A stretch of DNA of 64,000 nucleotides from Owenia fusiformis. Its lineage: Eukaryota > Annelida > Polychaeta > Sabellida > Oweniidae. The stretch is from the NCBI GenBank assembly GCA_903813345.2, contig CAIIXF020000010.1, positions 19,791,181-19,855,180 on the forward strand, given 5' to 3'. A program made the translations under genes and the position numbers. Position 1 is the stretch's first letter. Every line of letters starts with the position of its first letter. The notes beneath the pieces are model-generated. The model made no database searches. It was not told the origin of the DNA and saw only the letters and a program-made list of their open reading frames with translations. This document shows, in pieces, positions 6,506-51,200 of the stretch.

Positions 6506-9500
6506 ATGAATCGTTTTCAGTGCAAAAATTTTCCAGTCTTGTTTTTATTTTTTCTCAAAGTTTTTTCCATCTTCCAACAATCGTTCAGTTTTGCAGAGAA
6601 AGGAAATGCAGAACCTATAGGACATTTAAAACCACTTGGGTCTCACATGCCACCTGAAAGTTCAGTAGATGAACTTCAAGTCCTGCCAACATCAGAGATA
6701 TTCCACAAGGAATATGTTAAGCCTGGAAAGCCATTGATCTTCAAAGGAGCAGCTAAATTGATGCCTGCCTTTAAACTGTGGACTGACGATTATCTGAGGT
6801 TTGTAGAAATTCAATTGCAGACCCAACCAGGGGGATGTCATGTCAGTAAACCTGACAAAATCTTTGGGAGGAAGTAAATCTAAAAACATAGGATTAGTCC
6901 TTTGTAATGGCTGATGTGAAAGTCACTCCACCTTACTTCCTGCGAAAGCTATTGGATTTTGATATAATAGCTTTCCCACGGAGCATTTGGACAGCTCAAT
7001 GATCGTGACCTTTGAAACCGAATTAAGTCGATCCGCGGCTTACTTTTGGTCTCTAACTGTGTCTTACATCAGTATCATCAATCCGTGTAAGTATCGGAGC
7101 GCTGGAGTACTTCTTTTTCGATCAAGACTTGTAATTGTTAGTCAACTGAATCGTTTTACTGCCAAATTCCAATATGGCGGTTTCTGCTCGGACATTTTCG
7201 TAAATCTCCGGAGGTTGTCCGAACCTAACTAATTCTCAAGATTCATTTCGTTCGTTGCGTATCTCGCACCTAGCAAACCGCCATATTGGAAATGGGTCTA
7301 AAAAACTTTCACTCGATGAACAATTTACAAGTCTTGATCGAAAAAGAAGTACTCCAGCGCTCCGATACTTACATGGATTGATGATACTGATGTAAGACAC
7401 AGTTAGAGACCAAAAGTAAGCCGCGGATCGACGCGACTTAATTCGATTTCAAAGGTCACTATTGATGAGCTGTTCACTTCTCCGTTTGAGAGCCATAAGT
7501 TTCAAAATCTAACAGTGGCTCTCGAAGTGAGTAAACTCCACCTTATCCCGTTCCCGGACTATAGTCCTGCACTGAGCGCATTCATTTGCCTGTACGATTA
7601 CAACTTGGGAGAATTATCTACGCCCCTTACACTTAAGATACCTACCTCAATGCATTATAGAACTCAAGATGTAACTTCTAATATATTGGAACCGCCGATT
7701 GTCTGGGTATATCGGCAGAACGGGAACATTTCTCTTTTTCATCGAGAGAGATTCCATCACTTTTCAAAATGGTGGTTAGATTTAAAAGGGGAATCCCCCG
7801 TTTGGCTGTCCCGGATGTAGCCCGGAAGTACCAATATGGAGGAATTTGACGGTTGAAATAAGTTAAATGTTACACGCAAATATTGCGATCAAAAACGAAA
7901 ATGTCTTCGTTCTGCCGATAAACCCAGACAATTGTGGATTCAACTACATGAAAAGAATGCTAAATTACCAAGGAATCTATTGAAGTAGGTATCAGAAGTG
8001 TAAGATGAGTAAAAAATTCTCCCATGTTGTAATCGCACAGGCAAAAGATTGAGATGTTCACAGGACCATAGTCCGGGAACGGGATAAACTCCACCCTGGT
8101 GGGAAATGAATCCACAACCTCCAGATTACATGTCAGGTGCTCTACTACTTGAGCTACAGAGCCTTCTGACTCTGATATCAACATTGCATATATGACATCA
8201 CAGCCATGACTTACATGCCCAGTTGCATAGATCCATTATGAAGTTTACCTGTCTTTCCAGGTTGTCAATCGCGCTATTCATGATGTCACATGTTACTTCC
8301 TGCGAAAGCTATTTGGATTTTGATATAATAGCTTTCCCACGGAGCATTTGGTCAGCTCAATGATCGTGACCTTTGAAATTGAATTAAGTCGATCCGCGGC
8401 TTACTTTTGGTCTCTAACTGTGTCTTACATCAGTATCATCAATCCGTGTAAGTATTGGAGTGCTGGAGTACTTCTTTTTCGATCAAGACTTGTAATTGTT
8501 AGTCGAGTGAATCGTTTTACTGCCAAATTCCAATATGGCGGTTTCTGCTCGGACATTTTCGTAAATCTCCGGAGGTTGTCCGAACCTAACTAATTCTCAA
8601 AAATCATTTCGTTCGTTGCGTATCTCGCACCTAGCAAACCGCCATATTGGAAATAGGTCTGTAAAACTTTAACTCGATGAACAATTTACAAGTCTTGATC
8701 GAAAAAGAAGTACCCCAGCGCTCCAATACTTACACGGATTGATGATACTGATGTAAGACACAGTTAGAGACCAAAAGTAAGCCGCGGATCGACTTAATTC
8801 AATTTCAAAGGTCACTATTGATCAGCTGTTCACTTCTCCGTTTGAGAGCCATAAGTTTCAAAATCTAACATGGCTCTCGAAGTGAGTAAGTCACATGGTC
8901 TTTCCCATGTGCCATTCCCCAAAGGAGAAATTATTAGTTAATCTGAAAACATAGGATTAAATCCTATGCTACTGTTATGGCCGATGTGAAAAAAGCCACT
9001 CCACCATGATGAGGAAGGATTGTACATGTACAATTTTTACAGACGATATATCTCAGTATTCATATTCCATATATTTTTCACCTTGGCTCTTACAGTTTCA
9101 TATATTTCTTCTATCTGGCTCTTACAGTTCCAGATATGTTTTACCCATCAAGCTGTACGCAGTCCTAATTCAGGATTCTAGGTTTGGGAAAAAAGCCATG
9201 AGATGTGGGGTTTAAAAGGCATTAGGTGGCGGTTATCCTCCATGCAGGGTTAGGATTTGTAAATATATGGATTTTGAAAAAGTATACAGTACATGGAAAT
9301 ATAAAGTTTAAGACCTAAAAACATCAACTGTAAATATTTTAACCCTGAATGGATGGTACCTCCCCAAGCTCAATTTAGTTTTGGCATTTCACTTTTAATT
9401 TTTTGTATTTTCAGCTCTCAGTTTGGTGACTGGGATGTAGAAGTAGAGATGGGCAAAAAAGAGAACAGAAGTGGTAGTGCACGCCACTTGCCATTCAAGT

Positions 9501-20736: not shown

Positions 20737-21753
20737 CACGCCCGGTGATCGTGAATATGGGACGGAGGGGGGGAGCAGGCAATTTCTGCTAGGAAATTCA
20801 ACAAATCTGGAAGATTTATTTTTTCAAGAAAAAGTTTACTATTGAATTGCTAAATGGATAGGCGCACGGTATGGTAGAATATGTTAGGTTTTCTGGGATT
20901 TTTTCTGAAACGATACGCATCTAAGGTATGAGATCTATTAAAAAAGGTGCAAGGCCATCAACAGGCACAAATCAACGTTTTTGCTATAAATCAAGCAACA
21001 ATGGTCTGGACGACCTGTAATAAATACTTGTAAGTGATGTTATCATAACTAAATTAATGTCATTGCTGAATTTATAAAATAAGTTTCCATATGTGAAATA
21101 AAAAATAATCGAAAATAATGAATTTGGGACGGAGGGGGGGAGGGGACGGAGGGGGGAGCAATATGTATATAAGACATGATTAGAGATGTTTCGCGACTTT
21201 AAGTCCTTTTACTCCAAATGTCCCCATTTTTCAGTCTCCAGGGGTATATCATCCAGTTTCTTACTAAGTTAATGAGTTCATTTTTCAAATACAAGAATTC
21301 GTGTGAAGTTGTTTCACTTTATAGAATTATTACTCCCCCCCTCCGTCCCCTCCCCCCTCCGTCCCATTTTAATTATTTTCGATTATTTTTTATTTTACGT
21401 ATGGAAACTTATTTTATAAAATCAGCAAAGACATTAATTTAGTTATGCTAACATCACTTACAAGTATTTATTACAGGTCGTGTAGTCCATTGTTGCTTGA
21501 TTTATAGCAAAAACTTTGACTTTTGCACGTTGGTTGCGTTGCGCCTTTTTTAATAGATCTTATATCTTAAAAGAGTATCGGTTGAAAAATAATCCTAGAA
21601 TACCTAACATATTTTATCATACCGTGCGCTTATTCAATTTGCAATTCAATCGTAAACTCTGTCTTGAAAAAATAATTTTACCAGATTTGTTGAATTTTCT
21701 AGCGGAAATTGCCTGCTCCCCCCTCCGTCCCATTTTCACGATCACCGGGCGTG
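20737..21753. mobile_element. Fold-back element, CACGCCCGG ends, 5-bp TSD (copy 1)
   Basis: Ends CACGCCCGGTGATCGTGAA and the exact inverse TTCACGATCACCGGGCGTG are flanked by the duplication TCATA (20732-20736 and 21754-21758). The arms are about 420 bp and diverged. They meet at G-rich (ggacggaggggg) and C-rich (cccccctccgtccc) blocks around a loop at about 21165-21330. It has no coding capacity. A left-arm fragment of the same family is at 36692-36806. Confidence 0.8.
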
Positions 21754-26196: not shown

Positions 26197-27213
26197 CACG
26201 CCCGGTGATCGTGAATATGGGACGGAGGGGGGGAGCAGGCAATTTCTGCTAGGAAATTCAACAAATCTGGAAGATTTATTTTTTCAAGAAAAAGTTTACT
26301 ATTGAATTGCTAAATGGATAGGCGCACGGTATGGTAGAATATGTTAGGTTTTCTGGGATTTTTTCTGAAACGATACGCATCTAAGGTATGAGATCTATTA
26401 AAAAAGGTGCAAGGCCATCAACAGGCACAAATCAACGTTTTTGCTATAAATCAAGCAACAATGGTCTGGACGACCTGTAATAAATACTTGTAAGTGATGT
26501 TATCATAACTAAATTAATGTCATTGCTGAATTTATAAAATAAGTTTCCATATGTGAAATAAAAAATAATCGAAAATAATGAATTTGGGACGGAGGGGGGG
26601 AGGGGACGGAGGGGGGAGCAATATGTATATAAGACATGATTAGAGATGTTTCGCGACTTTAAGTCCTTTTACTCCAAATGTCCCCATTTTTCAGTCTCCA
26701 GGGGTATATCATCCAGTTTCTTACTAAGTTAATGAGTTCATTTTTCAAATACAAGAATTCGTGTGAAGTTGTTTCACTTTATAGAATTATTACTCCCCCC
26801 CTCCGTCCCCTCCCCCCTCCGTCCCATTTTAATTATTTTCGATTATTTTTTATTTTACGTATGGAAACTTATTTTATAAAATCAGCAAAGACATTAATTT
26901 AGTTATGCTAACATCACTTACAAGTATTTATTACAGGTCGTGTAGTCCATTGTTGCTTGATTTATAGCAAAAACTTTGACTTTTGCACGTTGGTTGCGTT
27001 GCGCCTTTTTTAATAGATCTTATATCTTAAAAGAGTATCGGTTGAAAAATAATCCTAGAATACCTAACATATTTTATCATACCGTGCGCTTATTCAATTT
27101 GCAATTCAATCGTAAACTCTGTCTTGAAAAAATAATTTTACCAGATTTGTTGAATTTTCTAGCGGAAATTGCCTGCTCCCCCCTCCGTCCCATTTTCACG
27201 ATCACCGGGCGTG
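26197..27213. mobile_element. Fold-back element, CACGCCCGG ends (copy 2)
   Basis: The same element as 20737-21753 including the flanking TCATA. It arose by the segmental duplication and not by a new insertion. Confidence 0.8.
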
Positions 27214-39200: not shown

Positions 39201-42200
39201 ATTTCAGCATGCTAAGGGCCATTCTTAGTTCAGAAAATTCTAAAATCGTCAAGGTATTTTCTTAAGCATCAATTTGAAAACTAATTTTTGTTTCATACAT
39301 TCTTGTAGCCGTTTGTGTACACCCCATGCAGACAGATTGCCTTAAATTACATTCGTATGATACGAGACTCGCCATTCACCAGGAAAGTAGAAACATTTTG
39401 TCACCCATGAAGCAAATTCATTTTTTACTGCATAATAAATGGTCAAGGAAAGTAACACTGAGTTCTATAAGTATGAGAATTACATAACGTTTTGATATTT
39501 CAAGGTAACTCATTCAAAAAGTGATGGCGGTGATCGAACTTACGATGTAAAGATAAAACCGTAATGAAATATTTGTAGATTTCTTTGAAAAACCAAGAAA
39601 TGTACATCACATATCGAAATTTATGATCGGACCTAAGTATGATGTTACTTTATTAACACTACATTGAAGTACACATCATACTAACTTATGTCCGATCATA
39701 AGTTTGAATAATAGTTGGGTTTCAAATATTAATTGTATGACTTTTACGAGACCAATGTTAATGCTACCAGGGGGAATGGGACCTACATGCCTTGAACTAC
39801 TGTATTTCTACATGTTTTTTTTTCTGTTTTGAAAAATTCAATATGAGATGTATATTTCTTAGGTTTTCAAAGAAATCTGCAAATATTTCATTGCAGTTTT
39901 ATCTTTACATCGTCATTTCAATCACCGTCATCATTTTTCGAACGAGTAACATTGAAATGTCAAGACGGCATGCTATTCTCATACTTATAGAACTTAATAT
40001 GACCGTCATTCATCATTTATTAAGCAGTAAAAAATTAATTTGCATCATGGGTGACAAAATGTTTCTACTTTCCTGGTGAATGTTGAGTCTCACATCAAAC
40101 GAATGTAATTTTAGGCGATCTGTCTGCATGGGCAGGTGTAGTAGAAAAGAAAATTATTTAAAATGAGGTTGCACCATCAACTTAAATTAGTGCTTTGTTG
40201 GTTATATAATAAACCTTGAACTTTTTCATGTCATTTGAAAAGTTGCATGTTTCTATATATTGTATTATATTGTATTTTGATTGTTTTAGGAAAGAGGGGG
40301 CAATAACAGTTTCAGCCATGATGCTTTAACTCTAAAATACAAGCTCGATAACGAGTTTGAGCTCACCTTTGTGGTAAGTTCAACATCATTAATGTAGTTT
40401 TTAAAAAAAACAAAAAAAAACATTGTACATTTTGTAACATTTTCTTGAAAGTGTTGGAAAAGGGAAAATATTATAAGAATCAAGTTTGGTTATTTCTATG
40501 ATGTTTTTTTCATGTGACCTTCCAGAGCATCATATGATATTATTGTTGTTTTAAGTTTTGATGATTTTTAATCAAAATCTGTGTTTTTGTATATGGACAC
40601 AAAAGTATATTATTATAGAGAATGTCTAATGTGCATATGATAATAAAACTGACTGAGGGAACAAGAGACCATTTTCTTTGTACAAGTACATGTATAGCTG
40701 AAAACATAGTTGAAAGTTGGATTATATGAATATTGCATGAGATTGTTACATCTTGGTTCACCTTGTATACAAATGCTGGAGTTAGTATGACATCCAGTGA
40801 AACCCTGTATTTTTAGATGAAAATAGGTTCATGAAAATAATTTTTCCATTTTTATTTTCTATCAACAGGTTGCCTACCAAAAGATCTTACAGCTGTCATA
40901 TGTTGATAAGTTTCTAAATGACATCCAGATTGAGTTCCGCAATCGCTACAAGGATGACCTTCAGGTTGGTCGGTATAATCGTAGTTTTGACTTCACAGAG
41001 ACTTTTATGTCCATGTTGAAATCTGCTGAGGAGGCTAGCAGAGCTGCAGCTCAAAAACCAAGGTATGACTATGAGACTGTTTCGTTATTCTGAATACATG
41101 ATTTTGGAAATAGGAAGACATTTTCCACCAGCCATTTTCCACCAGCCATTTAGGAAAATATGAACCATGTCTATGTGTAATGATGAAACCTGTATGCATA
41201 CAATGTTGGGACACATATATGAACTGACAGATTAAGTTTATGCTGCAAGATAGAGGACACTAGTCCAGTCATTTACATTGTTAAATAGATTGATAGCAGT
41301 AAAAGTTGATTATGAACTAAGTATTTTTTGTTGTTTTTTTTTAGAAAAATGAAGACTTTTGAACAGTCTGACAAATCTCGTAAAACAGTAGCGTCAATGA
41401 TTGAGAACAAGAAAGAGACGCCGAAACAGATCAAGGCGAAGGAAGCTGCCCTGAAGAAAGCAGGTGAGAGCGATAGTCTTTCACATTTGATCATAGTGAT
41501 TTACTGAAACACTGAAGCACCCAGTTGAGAATATGAAAAGTTGTTTTTTCTAAAGTCCATTTGCAACCATCATATTGAAAGTTGCTTAGATGTTTTAAAA
41601 ATGGGTCATAGATGGACTAAAAAAAATTGAACATTCATTTATTTTAAAATCCCTTTCATCATTTATTTTTAAAAATGGTGTTGAATTAAATATATGGTAT
41701 GCTAATTAAAATGTTATTTTCTAGATGATGAAAATGTAGCAAACATTGAGAAAGGTAAACTATAAAATGTGTACCTTTTCTGTAGGTGACTGTTTTCTTT
41801 AGGTGATGGAAATGTGTATTTCAACTTTTTATTTTCCAATTTCATATTTTTCATGTCATTCTGTACATAGTCTTTACATGAATTTATTTGGGGGTGTACT
41901 GTACTGTGGACAGTCATTGATTTATTACATAAGTTATTAAGCGTACAGGACCAGGTGCTGGGTTATTATTGATTGTAGTTTGGCTATGTGAGGTAATTTC
42001 TACAGCATTTTTGTTGTTATTAATTTGTCCAGAATTTCAAACATGAAAAATGTACTCTTAAGGTGTTTTAAATTAGCAGTAATTTGATTGTTTTAAAGTA
42101 TAACTACAACATCAAAGTAGATTTTGTTGGCCCCTCCTATGATGCAGCTAGGTAAATCCAATACAAATATTGTATATTCTAAAACCATGCAATGTCTTTC

Positions 42201-45200
42201 TGGTTGCAGCGAAGGAGAATGTATCTCCCAATGTATCTCCCCCCTCCTCTCCAGGGGGAGGTAGCCTTGATGAGTCCACCAGGCTGGCTAACATTGAGAG
42301 GTTGAAGAACAGAGGCAAGAAGAAGGAGAAAGCAAAAGAGTGAGTTATAATAGACATTCCCAAGTATGTTCAGAGATATGAAGTATTGAACAGTGTACAA
42401 CATCCTTCCTTATGCAGGGGTTTCACTAGAATTCGATTTTGTGAAAACAACTGGTGAAAATCGCCTGTTGCCTGCTGCTAATGAAACCCCTGTTACAGGC
42501 CTGTCAACTTGGGAACACCTAACATGAGTGACTTGGAAATGTTGAACACCTGCCCTCAAAATGTGGACACCTTGGTCCAAATGTGAACACCTTGATCCAT
42601 ATTTTGAACACCTTGGTTTAAATTTTATTGCATCTTGCCAAATTTTGAACACCTCAAATTTTTCACGCTCGCGTTTCAAACATCCATCAACGGGGGGGGG
42701 GGGGGGGTGGTAGCTACGAAAAATGTCAAACAGAATGCGTGACATATACGTAATTCGCGTGAAAAAAAGTCCAGGTAAAATGCGTATTGGCGTGACATTT
42801 TTTGTCACGCAAAAATAACTTGCGTGACTTCAAATTCTTCAGCAAATGCGTGACAAATACGCAAATTGCGGGACAGTTGACAGGCCTGCTTTTATGACTA
42901 TTTTTGTAAGGAAAAGGCATGGCCCTATTTAGTATGTAAGATGATTGGCACTTGAGATTAAACTATGATTAGGTCTAATGACATTCTCTGTAACATTGAT
43001 GTTGCTCAGTATCTGGTCATGCTGAGGCCATGCTTTAAAATTTAAAAGTTGTGAAAGGTATTTAAGCTATTTATTTTTGCACGTGATCCAATTTAAGTGT
43101 TGACCTTTTGCTATATGTGTGTTTGCAGTGATTCATCCTCCAATGACAAGAAGAAGAAGGGAAAGGAAAGTCGTATGTGGGATGTCCGCTACGGAGGCAA
43201 CACTAACAATAAGAGTGCCAAAGACCTGGACTTTAGTAGCAGCAGTGGAGGAGATTCTGTTACCAATGGACACCAGGATAATGGAGCTGTAGTGGAGCAG
43301 CAAGAGGTATGGGAATGGGGGGTGGAATAGAAAAGGTTGTTTAATGGGATGTAGAATAGTGTGAGAAATAGGGTGTAGAATCAGTGGTTGATCCAGGGGG
43401 GGGGGGGGGCATGGGGCCCGGGCCCCCCCCCCCCTAAGGTTGGCTCAGAAAAAAAAGTTGGGCCCAAAAAAATTTTAGGCCAAAAAAGGCTTTAAGGCCC
43501 CAAAAAGTGGGCCTTTTGGTCATTATTGGGTCCTCTAGGGCCTTATTTTTTTAATTTTAGGCCAAATTTTGAAGAAAATGGGCCTCAAATTTTCAAAATT
43601 TGGGCCCACTTTTCGGTTTTAGGGGCCCAAAATTTTTTTGGCTGACCTCAAATTTTGGGCCCCCCCTGTTGGTTCCTGGATCCGCCACTGAGAATAGGGT
43701 GTGGAATATTGTGCAGAATAGGATGTACAATAGGGTGAGGAATAGGGTATGGAATATTGTACAGAATAGATGTACAATAGGGTGTGGAATAAAATAGGGT
43801 GTGGAATAGGATGTAGAATAGGGTGCGGAACAGTATAGAATCGAATAAGGTGGGGAATATGGTGTATAATAGGTAAGGGGATAGAGGTTGGAATATGATG
43901 TAGAATAGCAAATATTATTTTGAAATGAAAGGAGGACTCAAAGACTTGTTGCATCATGGTCGTATTATACCTCTTGTGTTGTTATATTACAGTTATCATG
44001 GGTGGGGCAGATGAAAGGAGGACTCAAAGACATGGAACCAGAAAGCAGTTCGGAAGATGAGGAAGAGGAAGTTGCATCCACATCTAATACAACGTAAATA
44101 TTTCATATTTGAACTTTTCTCTTTTAAGGCTAGGCTTGAGTTAATGAAATATATGTTTTGCATATCGGCCTGCATTTATTTAGAATTACTTAATTTTTAG
44201 CATATCATATTCATTTTGAAAGAAATATCTGTTTTACGAGACATCATTAATTAAAGGTATGCTTTAAATGATTTTAGTCCATAATACAGCCATTTACCAC
44301 TCACACACTGAACATTTAAATCGATAGTCTGCAGAATTTAGAGCAAAACATGTAATCAGTGTCTCAATTGTACTCTTTTCAGGAAAAGCCAGCAGTCCTC
44401 TGGATTTGGAATGTTTAATGTGTTCAAGAATCTTGTGAGTGCCAAGACCCTGACCCATGATGACATTCAGCCAATTATGGAGAAAATGAAGGACCATCTC
44501 ATTGGTAGGTTGATTTTGAATTAGCCTGCTCTCATTGGCTTAAATACTACTCTCTGACAAGGGATTATAATTTTACAAAAAAGTATTCCACCAATGAGAT
44601 TTAATTGCATCTCTGAGCATTGCTATATTTGCATTATATTATAGGAATATTAGGGTTGGCTTGGGAGGTTCAAAGGTTTTTCAGTGTTGTGAAGTGGTTG
44701 ACCACATTAACTAAGGGTAAAATTAAATCAGGCTCATTAGTACTAAATATGAATATTTGAGAACTGATTTAAAGAAGAATTTTCAAAGAAATACTAGTTG
44801 TGCATGTTCTTTTAAATTATAGAGCAATGAAGTGATTCAGTAATGATCACCTTCTGCTTAAGCTAATGCATTATGGGATATATTATAAACTTGATGCAGG
44901 GAATTTAAGTCGAGAATATCTATTAATATTGTACATACATAAGCTGTGTAAAAGATTTACAGGCAAACCTGCTTCATGGTACTGCTTATACATTTGTTTT
45001 AATAAAATTTATTGATTTTAATTGTAGCCAAGAATGTTGCGGCAGATATTGCCCAGAAGTTGTGTGATTCTGTGGCAAGTAAACTAGAGGGTAAAGTGTT
45101 GGGCACATTTAGCGGTAAGTCTGAACATGAAGTAATAAACACACTTTTGTAAATAACCTTCCGTGTGCATGTATATTCATAAAGTAATTGAAAATGAAAA

Positions 45201-48200
45201 TGCAATTTGTATGGAATACTGTATTGATACTACAAATATAAGAAGATGAAGTTTGAGAGAGAATTGTAATGTCCCAAGTAAATGGTATTATAATTATGCT
45301 GCTTTGTACCAGTGATTAGTGATGAGCCATTTCTGATCATATCTAAGTGTTTTTCTTTGTTCTTTGTCTGTATTTCAGACTGTTACATTGTCTGTTTGTT
45401 TCTTCAGGAGTCACATCTACTGTAAAGACCGCTCTTCAGGAGGCTTGTATTCAGCTTTTGTCACCACGTCGTCGTGTAGACATCTTACGTGATGCCATGG
45501 AGGCAAAGCAGCAAAGGCGGCCTTACGTCATCACATTCTGTGGTGTCAATGGAGTCGGAAAGTCAACCAACCTGGCAAAAGTATGTCACTTTTCTCAGCT
45601 TTCTATTAATGCAGAGTGCAGACAGAATTTCCCATGGTCACAGATTTTCAGAATCTTTACTTTCGATCAGCGTATGAGGAATGACAAATTATCTGAAAAG
45701 GTGTTGAATAATCAGCCTTACCTCTGTAGTTTTATAGAAGTCATGTTAAATCCATAAATATTTAATGTAATAGTTTTCTCAATCAAGCTATTTGCACTAT
45801 ACATAAAATAACCTTGAATGGTCATATGTACTCTTGTTTCAGGTGTGCTTCTGGCTAGTTGAGAATGGATTCCGCGTGTTAATTGCTGCGTGTGATACAT
45901 TCAGAGCAGGGGCCGTTGAACAGTTGCGTACACATACTAGAAAACTGAATGCGCTCCACCCCCCTGAGAGTCACAATGGACAGCAGGTAACTCATTGTTT
46001 TGATCCATATTGATCACCTCAAAGATAAACAAAGATGGGGTGCAACTTTTAGCAATTATAAACAAATGTGATAAACAAAACTTTATTACAGAGATGTTCA
46101 GGTAAAATGTATGTCAATTAACCCCTTCCTATAAATTGCGTGTGTTTAAGAACCTTATACTTTATACTTTAGATTGGAGTCCTTTCAAAAAATGTTCATA
46201 GCATGCTCCATTTTCTTCATGTGCAAAAACCCAAAGGGTAAACTTGTAAAAAAGTAAAGTTTTCTATTTAAGGCTGTGCAGCTGTACGAGAAAGGCTATG
46301 GGAAAGATGCTGCCGGAATTGCAATGGAAGCTATCAACTGTGGTAAGTATATACAGTGCTAAGGAATATTGGGGTATTGCATTTAGTCTTGCTTAGGGCA
46401 GAATGTCAGAACAAATAATGCACTCATCTTTGGTTGGTGCTTCTCCGACATCCTGGTCTATCAATATTTATTCCTTAATTAAAGGTGCAACAATTAGTGC
46501 AGGGGGGCCATTCAGCAATCATCGACCAGTGTCAAAATATATAGAAGTTTGATTTAACAGAGCCATCAGATAGTGCAATACCTTAAATCAGTCTGTCTTC
46601 ATAAAGAAGGCTTTATTTTATATTCCAAACATTACACTTTTTTTGATAATGTATTGAAAGCTAGTGAGAATTGATTTTACAGTTCTTAAGTTTGTAGATT
46701 TAAAAGTCAAGTAAGGGTCCAAAGAATCTATTTCCATTATCATTTACATCAGTATTGAACAAAAAATCATCAAAGGCATCAACCAACTCCTTTTCTGAGA
46801 TTTTCCCATCATGGTTTGTATCCATGTAATCAAACTGCAATCTAGCTAGGTTGTGATCACACTTCAAGGCCTTCCAGAAAATCAAGTACTCTTCAAAGCT
46901 TATAAACCCATCAGAGTTGAAATCAACAGCCTGTAATATTAAAATATATATTATCTATTAAATGTTATGTTCAGTTCTGGTCTCTACACCACCTTCTTTC
47001 ATGTTGTAGCACCCACCTAAGCCTAAATCTGCACTAGTTGTATGCTGACTTGAGACAATGTTTCATAAAGATTGTCATTTTTGATGTAACTATTATATAG
47101 TACAGGGTGACACAAATAATGCCACCCACGCAATGCTACATAACCTTTTTGTCTGCATGATATCTGAAAACTAAGCTCCATGGAGCAACTTCACGAGAAG
47201 TTTCAGATGAATTTCTCAACTAGATGCACTTTTATGAGCATTTCAAGATGTGCTCTAAATGTCGTTCATTCTTTTGCAGTCACACCTGGATTCTGCACAA
47301 AATAATGCCACCTACCTTTTGTAACATAACTTTGTAAATACTAATGAATTTTGCTTGTCCAATCCATTAAACGCAAAATGATATAGTTTTTAGCTCACAT
47401 GCTCACATAGTGAGCTATTGTGATCACTCATTTGTCCATCCGTCTGTGACTGTCCGTCTGTCCGTCTGTCAAAAACTGGCCCATTTTAAAACCTCTGTCA
47501 ATAGGATTCCCGTTTTAAGTTTCCATTTTTTGGACCATTTGCTTTAAACCTGTGTCGATAGCATCAATACAGAAAACTCCCATTCAAAAGCTCACCTATT
47601 TTTATAATGGTCACATTTTTGTCTTGCAAAATTCACTTTTGGCCCATTTCCTTGCTTTACAAACTAGACAACAGCAACGCCAAAGCGTAGCAAATCCCAT
47701 CGAACAGCCATAGCTGGCATGTTTACAAAGTATATAGCAAAAATGGCAGCCATTTTTCAAAATGGCCACCTTCTACCAAAAGTGTCATTAGACAGTGTGC
47801 CATGCTTATAGTATTCACATACCAAATATGAACAAAATTGCTCCACTACTTTTCGAGTTATAGTAAAATACGTTAAAATGGCGGCCATTTTTCAAAATGG
47901 CTGCCTTCTACCAAAAGTGTCATTAAACAGTTTGCCATGGTTCACCCTATGCAGACAGAGCCTGTGGGAAATATTGGGTGCGGCGCAAATGAGCGGAGGG
48001 TGCGGAGCTAACGGTCATTTTTGAATTTAAAATTGGGATATTTCTGAAACTAAGCCGTTTTGGGACTTCAAATATACCAAGATATGTGTATTTGACACCA
48101 AATATCAATAAAATTGTGAAAATAGTAGTGCAATTCATTTTATAGCGACGCAGTATGCCTTAAACATTTCCCAGACCTATATATTTTGAGACTATCCTTT

Positions 48201-51200
48201 TAATACTGCGTCCCCAGCATTCATAAAAAAATGGTGTTCAAGATACACTACCCATGCAAATTATTTTTGCATCTTGGAAGCCAGGCAGTATCTGTGTGAT
48301 TTTATAAAAATTATGAAATGTTCTTCAGATATGAGCCCCCTCTAAATATTGGGTGCGGAGGTACGTTTACATAGTTTATGGAGTTCCTCCGCACCCAATA
48401 TTTAGAGGGGGCTCATATCTGAAAAACATTTCCGAATTTTTATAAAATCACACAGATACTGCCTGGCTTCCAAGATGCAAAATAATTTGTATAGATACTT
48501 GAACACCATTTTTTATGAATGCTGGGGACTCAGTATTAAAAGGATAATTTCAAAATATATAGGTCTGGGAAAGGTTTAAGGCACACTGCGTCGCTATAGA
48601 ATGAATTGCGCTACTATTTTCACAATTGCATTGATATTTGGTGTCAAATACACATATCTTGGTATATTTGAAGTCCCAAAACGGCTTAGTTTCAGAAATA
48701 TCCCAAATTTAAATTCAAAAATGACCGTTAGCTCCGCACCCTCCGCTCATTTGCTCCGCACCCAATATTTCCACAGGCTCTGTCTGCATAGGGTGTGGTT
48801 GTAGTATTCACATACCAAATATGAACAAAATCGCTCTACTACTTTTCGAGTTATAGTAAAATACGTTAAAATGGCGGCCATTTTTCTACGAAAAGTTTCA
48901 TTAGACAGTGTGCCATGCTTATAGTATTCACATACCAAATATGAACAAAATCGCACAACTACTTTTTGAGTTACAGCAAAAATCGTAAAATAACTAGTAA
49001 AGTCCGCCATTTTTTAAGATGGCTGCCATGTGCTTCTTTAATATCTACATTTCTAGCTTTATTAATGTCCTATATAATTTTTTTACATTTAAAACATATT
49101 GCTATTACAGTTTTACATATTGCACCTAAATTACTGTAAAATCGGCACTAAAATGGCCGCCATTTTAAAATGAGTGGCCATTTTGAAAATCGGCTTTTAA
49201 GCAGAACTACTCCCATTGGGTATATGTGTACAAAATATGAACAAAATCAGGCCAGCGGTATTTGAGTTATTGCCCGCACGGACGGACGGACGGAGGCGTT
49301 CCCTATATTCCTCTGAACTTCGTTCAATGGGATAATAATTTCAGGTGATACATAGGGACAAAGAAATTTTCAAGATGGCTGCTATTTATTATTACATGTA
49401 TATGCCAAATATTTTCTTGCATACCTTTTGGCAGAGCTTTACTACCATTACAAGTCAAAGGCCAGTTTGAATGGTTCATAAATATAATTGACAGACTGCT
49501 GTGTCTTCAAAATGGAATTGAACTCAGGACTTTAGCAGCCTTCTTACCTGAAATAGCCTCTTCCAAAACCTAACCCAAGGCTTCTTCTTTTCAGGATCAT
49601 TAGTCATTGCCCATATGTCCAAAATCTGCTCCACAAGAGGTTTTGAGAAATAACTAGGAACTTCTTTTTCAGTGCAAGCTATTTCATCGACCCATAAATA
49701 AAATATTTTGTCAGCTGCTTTCCCCTTTAAACCACCTGAAAGATCATGAAATCATTGTTAAGCACATAAAAGTACTTTATTTTAAGCACATAAAAGAATT
49801 TTAATTTAAGTACATAAAAGCACTTTAATTTAAGCACAAAAAGCACTTTAATTTAAGCACATATAAGCATTTTAATTTAAGCACATAAAAGCACTTTAAT
49901 TTAAGCACATAAAAGCACTTTAATAAAGCACATAAAAGCATTTTGAATTAAGCTATAATTACAGGTCAGTTAATTTACTCCTCATGTTTATATCTCAAAA
50001 GTTGTTTATGAGTTATGGTAATGATAGAAATTGATCCAGGAACATTCCTTAATACACTGTACCTATCTTTACAATGTTATCTGCAATGCTCATGGCATCT
50101 TCGTAACTATATTGGCCATCCTTGTCAGCGTCCCAAACAAAGATTGTAGTCAATGCTTTTCTTAGCCACAATCTTGGAAGATCACTAAGTCGTACCTATA
50201 AATCACATCAATTGTCATTTGATCTATAATTGTTTCCATTGAGTGTCCAAGCTGTGTATGGTTAATGAAGCTCTCTCTTTTGATATTTTTGTTGCATAAT
50301 TTGTCATCTAATAAATGTGTAAAAGTAAAAGTAAAAGTAAAAATCAGTATAATACTGATAATTATAGATACACAGCAACATGCTGTATTAGCTTAATGCT
50401 TAAACAAGGAGTGAAAAACACTTTAATTGTTATATACAACCTTTAACTTAGTACATTTAGGTAGAATAGGTTATTATAGTAGGTTGATATGGTTATTTTT
50501 GTAAATAATATTTTTGTTCTGTCGGACTTCTCAATATTGTATTGCACTTGTATGTACAGTCTTACAAAAATTTTGGAGTCATTAAATCACATTATTAAAT
50601 GTGTACCCAATTACAAGGGTACATCTTTAGTTTGAATGAATTAACAATTAACACAATAAAACATGATGTTATAAATATAGGTTATTTACTGGGAGGAATT
50701 GAATATGGATTTTATTCCGAGGGACAGTAAGATATTGATATTGTAATAATACACATTGGCTTAGCCAAGATTTGACAGGAGGGGGTTCGAATAATAACAT
50801 TTGAATTCATTTAAGTGGTATTAGATCAGTATTTCAGGCCTAAAATGCAAAGTACTTTTTTACTCAAGATAAAGTTATAAATCTCGCATATTTCCATCTA
50901 TACCTGTACCTTAAATATCTTAGGAAATCAAAAAACGATAAATAACTGAAATACTGCAAAAATTTACTCAAAATTTGGGGGTCACACAACTGCAAGAAAA
51001 CGAACCCTCTCTCCCTACAGCCGTGATACATACAATGCAATTTATTAGAATGGAAACAATACTTACTTGTTTCTTTGTATCTTCCATACTGAATTCTATC
51101 ACATTGCTTGTTGAACTGAATATTTAGTAGACCTACTGTTGTAAGACTACCCAAGGAAAACACATCACATCTTTTTGACATTTTTATTTGGTTCACTTAA

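Follow-up and report, generated by a model that had tools for sequence, protein, structure and literature searches.

Transposons of the CMCT group (the CACTA/Mirage/Chapaev/Transib/RAG clade) usually end in CA..TG and carry target-site duplications (TSDs) of 2–5 bp (PMC12730594). A 5-bp TSD is typical of Transib (PMC4411706), and the RAG-like (RAGL) transposons of protostomes have CAC ends, invariable 5-bp TSDs and known non-autonomous members (PMC7204232). Here we describe two elements in a 64,000-nucleotide stretch of the genome of the annelid Owenia fusiformis (contig CAIIXF020000010.1, positions 19,791,181 to 19,855,180, forward strand; hereafter the window). They represent two families, W1 and W2, of non-autonomous palindromic cut-and-paste transposons, namely foldback miniature inverted-repeat transposable elements (MITEs), which share a 17-bp end and a 5-bp TSD. 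Both families were probably moved in trans through this short end with a 5-bp stagger, a CMCT enzyme being a tentative candidate for the agent.

Two foldback elements in the window

Element 1, a W1-family foldback MITE of 816 bp, lies at 39320–40135 (no strand assigned) between plus-strand TSDs GTGTA (39315–39319 and 40136–40140). Its left arm (39323–39622, plus strand) and right arm (39833–40132, minus strand) span 300 nt each and are 86% complementary. The left terminal 17 bp are CACCCCATGCAGACAGA (39320–39336, plus strand), and the right terminal 17 bp, CTGCCCATGCAGACAGA (CTGCCC...; 40119–40135, minus strand), contain two mismatches. Element 2, a foldback MITE of 853 bp in subfamily A of the W2 family, lies at 47943–48795 (likewise without strand) and is almost perfectly palindromic (96%, in blocks of 264, 100 and 28 nt). 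Its left terminal 17 bp, CACCCTATGCAGACAGA (47943–47959, plus strand), recur exactly on the right (48779–48795, minus strand), and plus-strand TSDs TGGTT flank it (47938–47942 and 48796–48800). The repeat hosting element 2 has a neighbouring paralogous copy (47740–47893, plus strand) without the insertion, in which the empty site is uninterrupted. The coordinates and duplications that a preliminary description had given for both elements were confirmed.

The left ends of the two elements are identical at 16/17 positions, and the 17-bp motif occurs at up to three mismatches at 4 sites in the window, against 0.08 expected. Inside the 17 bp, the best match between the elements scores 26.5 bits, which was reached by 36 of 500 dinucleotide shuffles; the similarity of the inner arms is thus not beyond chance, in agreement with the preliminary description. 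Neither element contains a stop-to-stop frame of at least 110 amino acids. The computed RNA fold energy is −686.8 kcal/mol for element 2 and −420.2 kcal/mol for element 1, compared with means of −198.7 and −163.8 kcal/mol, respectively, for 20 shuffles each.

Genome-wide copies, target sites and family history

The exact motif, CACCCYATGCAGACAGA, has 1,569 sites (808 forward and 761 reverse) in the 498-Mb assembly of 525 contigs, while the reversed pattern, serving as control, has none. For pairing, we used the first 100 sites, which all fall in the first 28.7 Mb of contig 1 and resolve into 39 inverted pairs and 22 single sites. An exact 5-bp TSD flanks 35 of the 39 pairs, an exact 6-bp copy flanks two, and the remaining two have neither, so that the consistent duplication and shared end anticipated in the preliminary description extend to copies elsewhere in the genome. 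By arm type, 37 pairs are W2 (23 of them full length, 840–865 bp) and two are W1; the W1-type T at position 18 follows the motif at 129 + 105 sites in the assembly.

TSDs were also counted in a set of 60 elements (42 W2 and 18 W1), a non-random sample to which chosen long, odd and W1-type copies had been added. Exact 5-bp TSDs flank 39/42 W2 and 7/18 W1 elements, whereas re-pairing the flanks in 2,000 shuffles gave means of 1.0 (maximum 6) and 0.5 (maximum 3). Only one of the 42 W2 elements has neither a 5-bp nor a 6-bp exact copy. Left out of these counts were loci whose second end was not found in the sequence fetched around them (L048, L051, L053, L056, L086, L087, L090, L093–L096 and L112), L098 (flanks as in L097), L109–L111 (flanks as in L031) and L089, which is not an element. 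The high copy number, precise TSDs and lack of a transposase are those of non-autonomous DNA transposons, and the inverted arms make up most of each element, as in foldback-type structures. Members of both families have moved in the past.

When the 46 exact insertions are read symmetrically, a pyrimidine stands at −1 and at −3 in 66/92 cases each (p 3.7e-5 each). No preference is seen at the remaining three of the five flank positions tested. The duplication itself is rich in A+T, and the target is symmetric, YNY-5 bp-RNR. Two symmetric strand transfers staggered by 5 bp would be expected to give a palindromic preference of this kind.

W2 is common and young, and W1 is older and decayed. Full-length copies account for 27/42 W2 elements. 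Of these, 17 form subfamily A, with pairwise differences of 1.9% on average and 0.12% at the least, and 10 form subfamily B (mean 2.0%); the two subfamilies are 6.6% apart. The W2 majority sequence is palindromic end to end (1–851 against 851–1, 95.5%). Since the two arms of a W2 copy show a mean difference of 5.3% and those of the majority sequence one of 3.5%, the W2 bursts seem to have inherited unequal arms that were not equalised. In W1, the arm-to-arm difference is 13–31% (9 elements), and pieces of other copies are about 71–97% identical to element 1 by BLAST. Old relatives of W2 are also present (L051, 67–82% by piece; L047, 81–94% by piece), and one W2 is nested inside a W1 with the TSD ATTAT (L080). 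Both arm types look old, judging from these divergences, and no element among the 60 joins a W1 arm to a W2 arm by BLAST rows; W1 and W2 therefore behave as two separate, long-lived families side by side. In six of 11 internally deleted W2 copies, a breakpoint lies no more than 26 bp from the palindrome centre, where random placement of deletions of the same sizes would give 1.7 (p 0.003). These breakpoints were entered by hand from BLAST rows and the 26-bp window was chosen post hoc, windows of 10–40 bp giving p values of 0.0017–0.022; the central position would be consistent with damage to a hairpin or cruciform tip, which is only suggestive.

A three-position diagnostic pattern, which is estimated to catch only about 4/10 unrelated ends and misses partners with W1- or W2-like subterminal DNA, revealed no further arm type attached to the exact 17-mer. 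Eight sites depart from both families at these positions, and all of them look like W1 or W2 derivatives (three by BLAST, five by eye). At up to two mismatches the pattern has 84 matches (control, 16), among which only one inverted pair closer than 10 kb was seen by eye (C6:22.62 Mb), with W2-like letters; long pairs are visible only among the first 100 listed sites.

Several loci were considered as special cases and set aside. Four half-elements (L031 and L109–L111), in each of which a single W2 arm is paired with a right end of just 18 bp, might seem to prove that 17 bp suffice; since the flanks are identical in all four, they go back to a single insertion that was duplicated together with the DNA around it and give no such proof. 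A 3.07-kb element with W1 ends (L079) and two W2 elements with inserts (L004 and L005, the insert of L005 being tandem repeats by eye) were rejected as autonomous partners, as none has a long reading frame or a recognisable transposase inside. The CCCCCTAGGCAGACATATA family, with 1,424 sites when one mismatch is allowed, agrees with the W2 end in 14/17 bases, yet it is a separate family because its inverted repeat extends further outward.

Candidate transposases and competing explanations

The simplest reading, in which we have good confidence, is that one transposase was common to W1 and W2. Supplied in trans, it would recognise little more than the terminal 17 bp, cut at CAC/GTG and join the element to the target with a 5-bp stagger, preferring the symmetric sites described above. 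Since the arms are unlike between the families, arm sequence is probably not needed for recognition, and the 17-bp end may be sufficient. The preliminary description had likewise proposed one transposase acting on a short end, and the shared end and TSD make this part likely; its further suggestion that the arms had been replaced is unsupported, given the lack of mixed elements. Alternatively, W1 and W2 depend or depended on separate transposases, and their 17-bp ends are alike by common descent of two autonomous lineages. The differences in age and arms and the lack of chimeras agree with such separate lineages, but terminal bases and TSD length that are alike, with nothing beyond chance inside, are what shared recognition would keep, and the diagnostic pattern brought up no third arm type carrying the exact 17-mer. 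We consider two separate enzymes improbable.

The common transposase can be assigned to a superfamily only tentatively, a CMCT-type DDE enzyme being suggested by the CAC start and the 5-bp TSD. Several observations weigh against our interpretation as a whole. Genome searches, which can miss matches, found no transposase gene with W1/W2 ends, and a shared transposase is therefore something that we infer. An insect-type Transib query, validated at 1.5e-135 against the solved Transib, had no match in the assembly, a miss that does not show absence. With the Pfam RAG1 model, the assembly gave only matches below the cut-off, to one RAG1-like family with other ends. In addition, 6-bp copies replace the 5-bp TSD in 3 of the 60 elements (2 W2, 1 W1), and W1 TSDs are frequently lost (10/18 without a 5- or 6-bp exact copy), so that the W1 case rests on few elements. 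The elements were selected by the 17-mer itself, and the extent of conservation can therefore not be measured without bias. The Transib/RAG heptamer is CACWATG, and no heptamer-like sequence follows CAC in W1/W2 (CACCCYATG against CACTWMCAA, by eye). With the protostome RAGL consensus CACTWMCAAACKTYKBB (PMC7204232), the W1/W2 end agrees only in CAC, also by eye.

The RAG1-like open reading frame (ORF) family (L001–L003, L043–L045, L077 and L089) matches RAG1 in the PDB with an E value of 0.00045. Its frames of 726–729 amino acids (L044 with L077, L043 and L045) occur in several near-identical copies and match the C-terminal part of the RAG1 core weakly. The element carrying them is about 5.37 kb long and has CATATCGAGATTTT as its 24-bp ends, and neither of the two copies read shows a TSD; these ends and the lack of a TSD rule it out as the partner of W1/W2.

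Another source of the enzyme could be the Chapaev-like transposons, which are plentiful in this genome. The name is one we assign from end and TSD, and the transposases match Pfam DUF1280. These elements also begin with CAC (CACACCATCCC, CACAGCAAGCC, CACAGCTTCCCC and CACTGGGAGCC), and some of the DUF1280 transposases that they encode are present as near-identical copies. However, Chapaev duplicates 4 bp, and among 16 Chapaev-like loci (L057–L072) all 11 with readable ends (L058 and L063–L072) have a 4-bp TSD; L061 has a weaker 4-bp candidate, and L057, L059, L060 and L062 have none. None of these loci carries the 17-bp end at its own ends. We scored 68/181 candidates, and an element with a 5-bp TSD and the W1/W2 end could lie among the rest; overall, membership of W1/W2 in this group is very unlikely. 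The 11 loci with readable ends are themselves diverse and partly intact. In this group ORF1 is zf-AD-like, although it exceeds the Pfam threshold in a single related locus, L057, and ORF2 is DUF1280 in the two loci tested (L057 and L058). L058 also contains a CCCTATGCAGA pair resembling the W1/W2 end; this pair is internal to the true ends of the element (CACACC..., 4-bp TSD) and was taken as chance, as was CACCCTATG adjoining a Chapaev-like gene in L117.

A hAT5-type transposase could also have mobilised W1/W2, the CAC start then being incidental. This genome is rich in hAT genes (138 of 150 scored candidates match), but the W1/W2 end was found within five mismatches in 0 of 13 hAT matches checked of the 138, each taken with the 1 kb that follows its dimerisation domain. 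CACCC moreover does not fit YARNG, the terminal pattern usual in hAT elements. Although hAT5 is defined by 5-bp TSDs (PMC12730594), as found in W1/W2, we regard this source as doubtful.

Further families combining CAC with a 5-bp TSD were sought in all fetched loci and the window, a non-random sample, by scanning outside W1/W2 for inverted ends of 16 bp flanked by an exact TSD that is not itself palindromic. The TSD was 3 bp long in 27 of the resulting cases, 4 bp in 8 (7 Chapaev-like), 5 bp in 5, 7 bp in 1 and 8 bp in 2. Two of the five 5-bp cases represent a single F3 insertion, a third is F4, a fourth starts with CAGTGATC and the fifth sits within a W1 arm. F3, a third foldback family, occupies 20737–21753 of the window (no strand assigned) with the end CACGCCCGGTGATCGTGA and the TSD TCATA; a second copy of the same insertion (26197–27213, no strand assigned) lies inside an approximately 4.5-kb duplication of 99.4% identity. 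F3 is a parallel case, since its end differs from that of W1/W2, and this end has 388 + 384 = 772 sites in the genome at up to one mismatch, with some of the listed copies measuring about 1.4–1.5 kb. F4 (L113:1545–3047) is 1,503 bp long, with 51-bp perfect ends CACGGGGGATAAGC, the TSD TGAAG and a longest frame of 121 amino acids, and it is absent from a paralogous copy (L114), which provides the empty site. Four families here (W1, W2, F3 and F4) thus combine CAC with a 5-bp TSD, those of F3 and F4 resting on one insertion each. An undescribed transposase lineage with CAC ends and a 5-bp TSD, related to Transib/RAG and having ends of its own, might drive several independent non-autonomous families, including W1, W2 and F3; this is possible, if somewhat unlikely. 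If such an enzyme read only the short end, almost any palindromic cargo could be amplified.

Separately, a 486-bp element at L053:160–645 has perfect 16-bp ends CACGGACGTCAAGTAC and an 8-bp TSD, GTTCAGTT. Between elements 1 and 2, the window contains a frame resembling an SRP54-type GTPase exon (45347–45757), under the Pfam cut-off, and a tRNA-like match of 38.3 bits lies among several inverted repeats at 8091–8163 (minus strand).

Significance and comparison with known systems

Two unrelated bodies with one 17-bp end offer a natural comparison of the terminal bases needed by a transposase, and the many young copies in the genome make activity testable. W2 copies, if transcribed, would form very long hairpins and could feed small-RNA pathways. 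If the enzyme resembles those of RAG and Transib, the group behind the origin of V(D)J recombination would gain a lineage. Among the open-licence PMC papers searched, none contains any of five motif strings, and no title or abstract listed on Transib MITEs, foldback transposons or annelid Transibs describes these families; a Repbase or Dfam entry may exist.

Like other MITEs, W1 and W2 are short, non-coding and of high copy number, with inverted ends, a TSD, recent bursts and internal-deletion derivatives. They differ in that the W2 inverted repeat spans the whole element and that two families with unrelated arms share one end. The P superfamily, to which Foldback/Galileo belongs, duplicates 7–8 bp. 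According to PMC3573991, Galileo resembles W1/W2 in its dominant long inverted arms, its non-coding copies with two terminal inverted repeats (TIRs) and its subfamilies, but its flanking duplications are 7 bp and its TIRs can be aligned across subfamilies, in contrast to the 5-bp TSD and unrelated arms described here. The Chapaev-like elements of the same genome share the CAC start, and the first 8 bases of W1 match CACACCAT at 7/8, a weak likeness; their 4-bp TSD and end differ. With Transib and the RAGL transposons, W1 and W2 have in common both the CAC start of their ends and the 5-bp length of their TSD.

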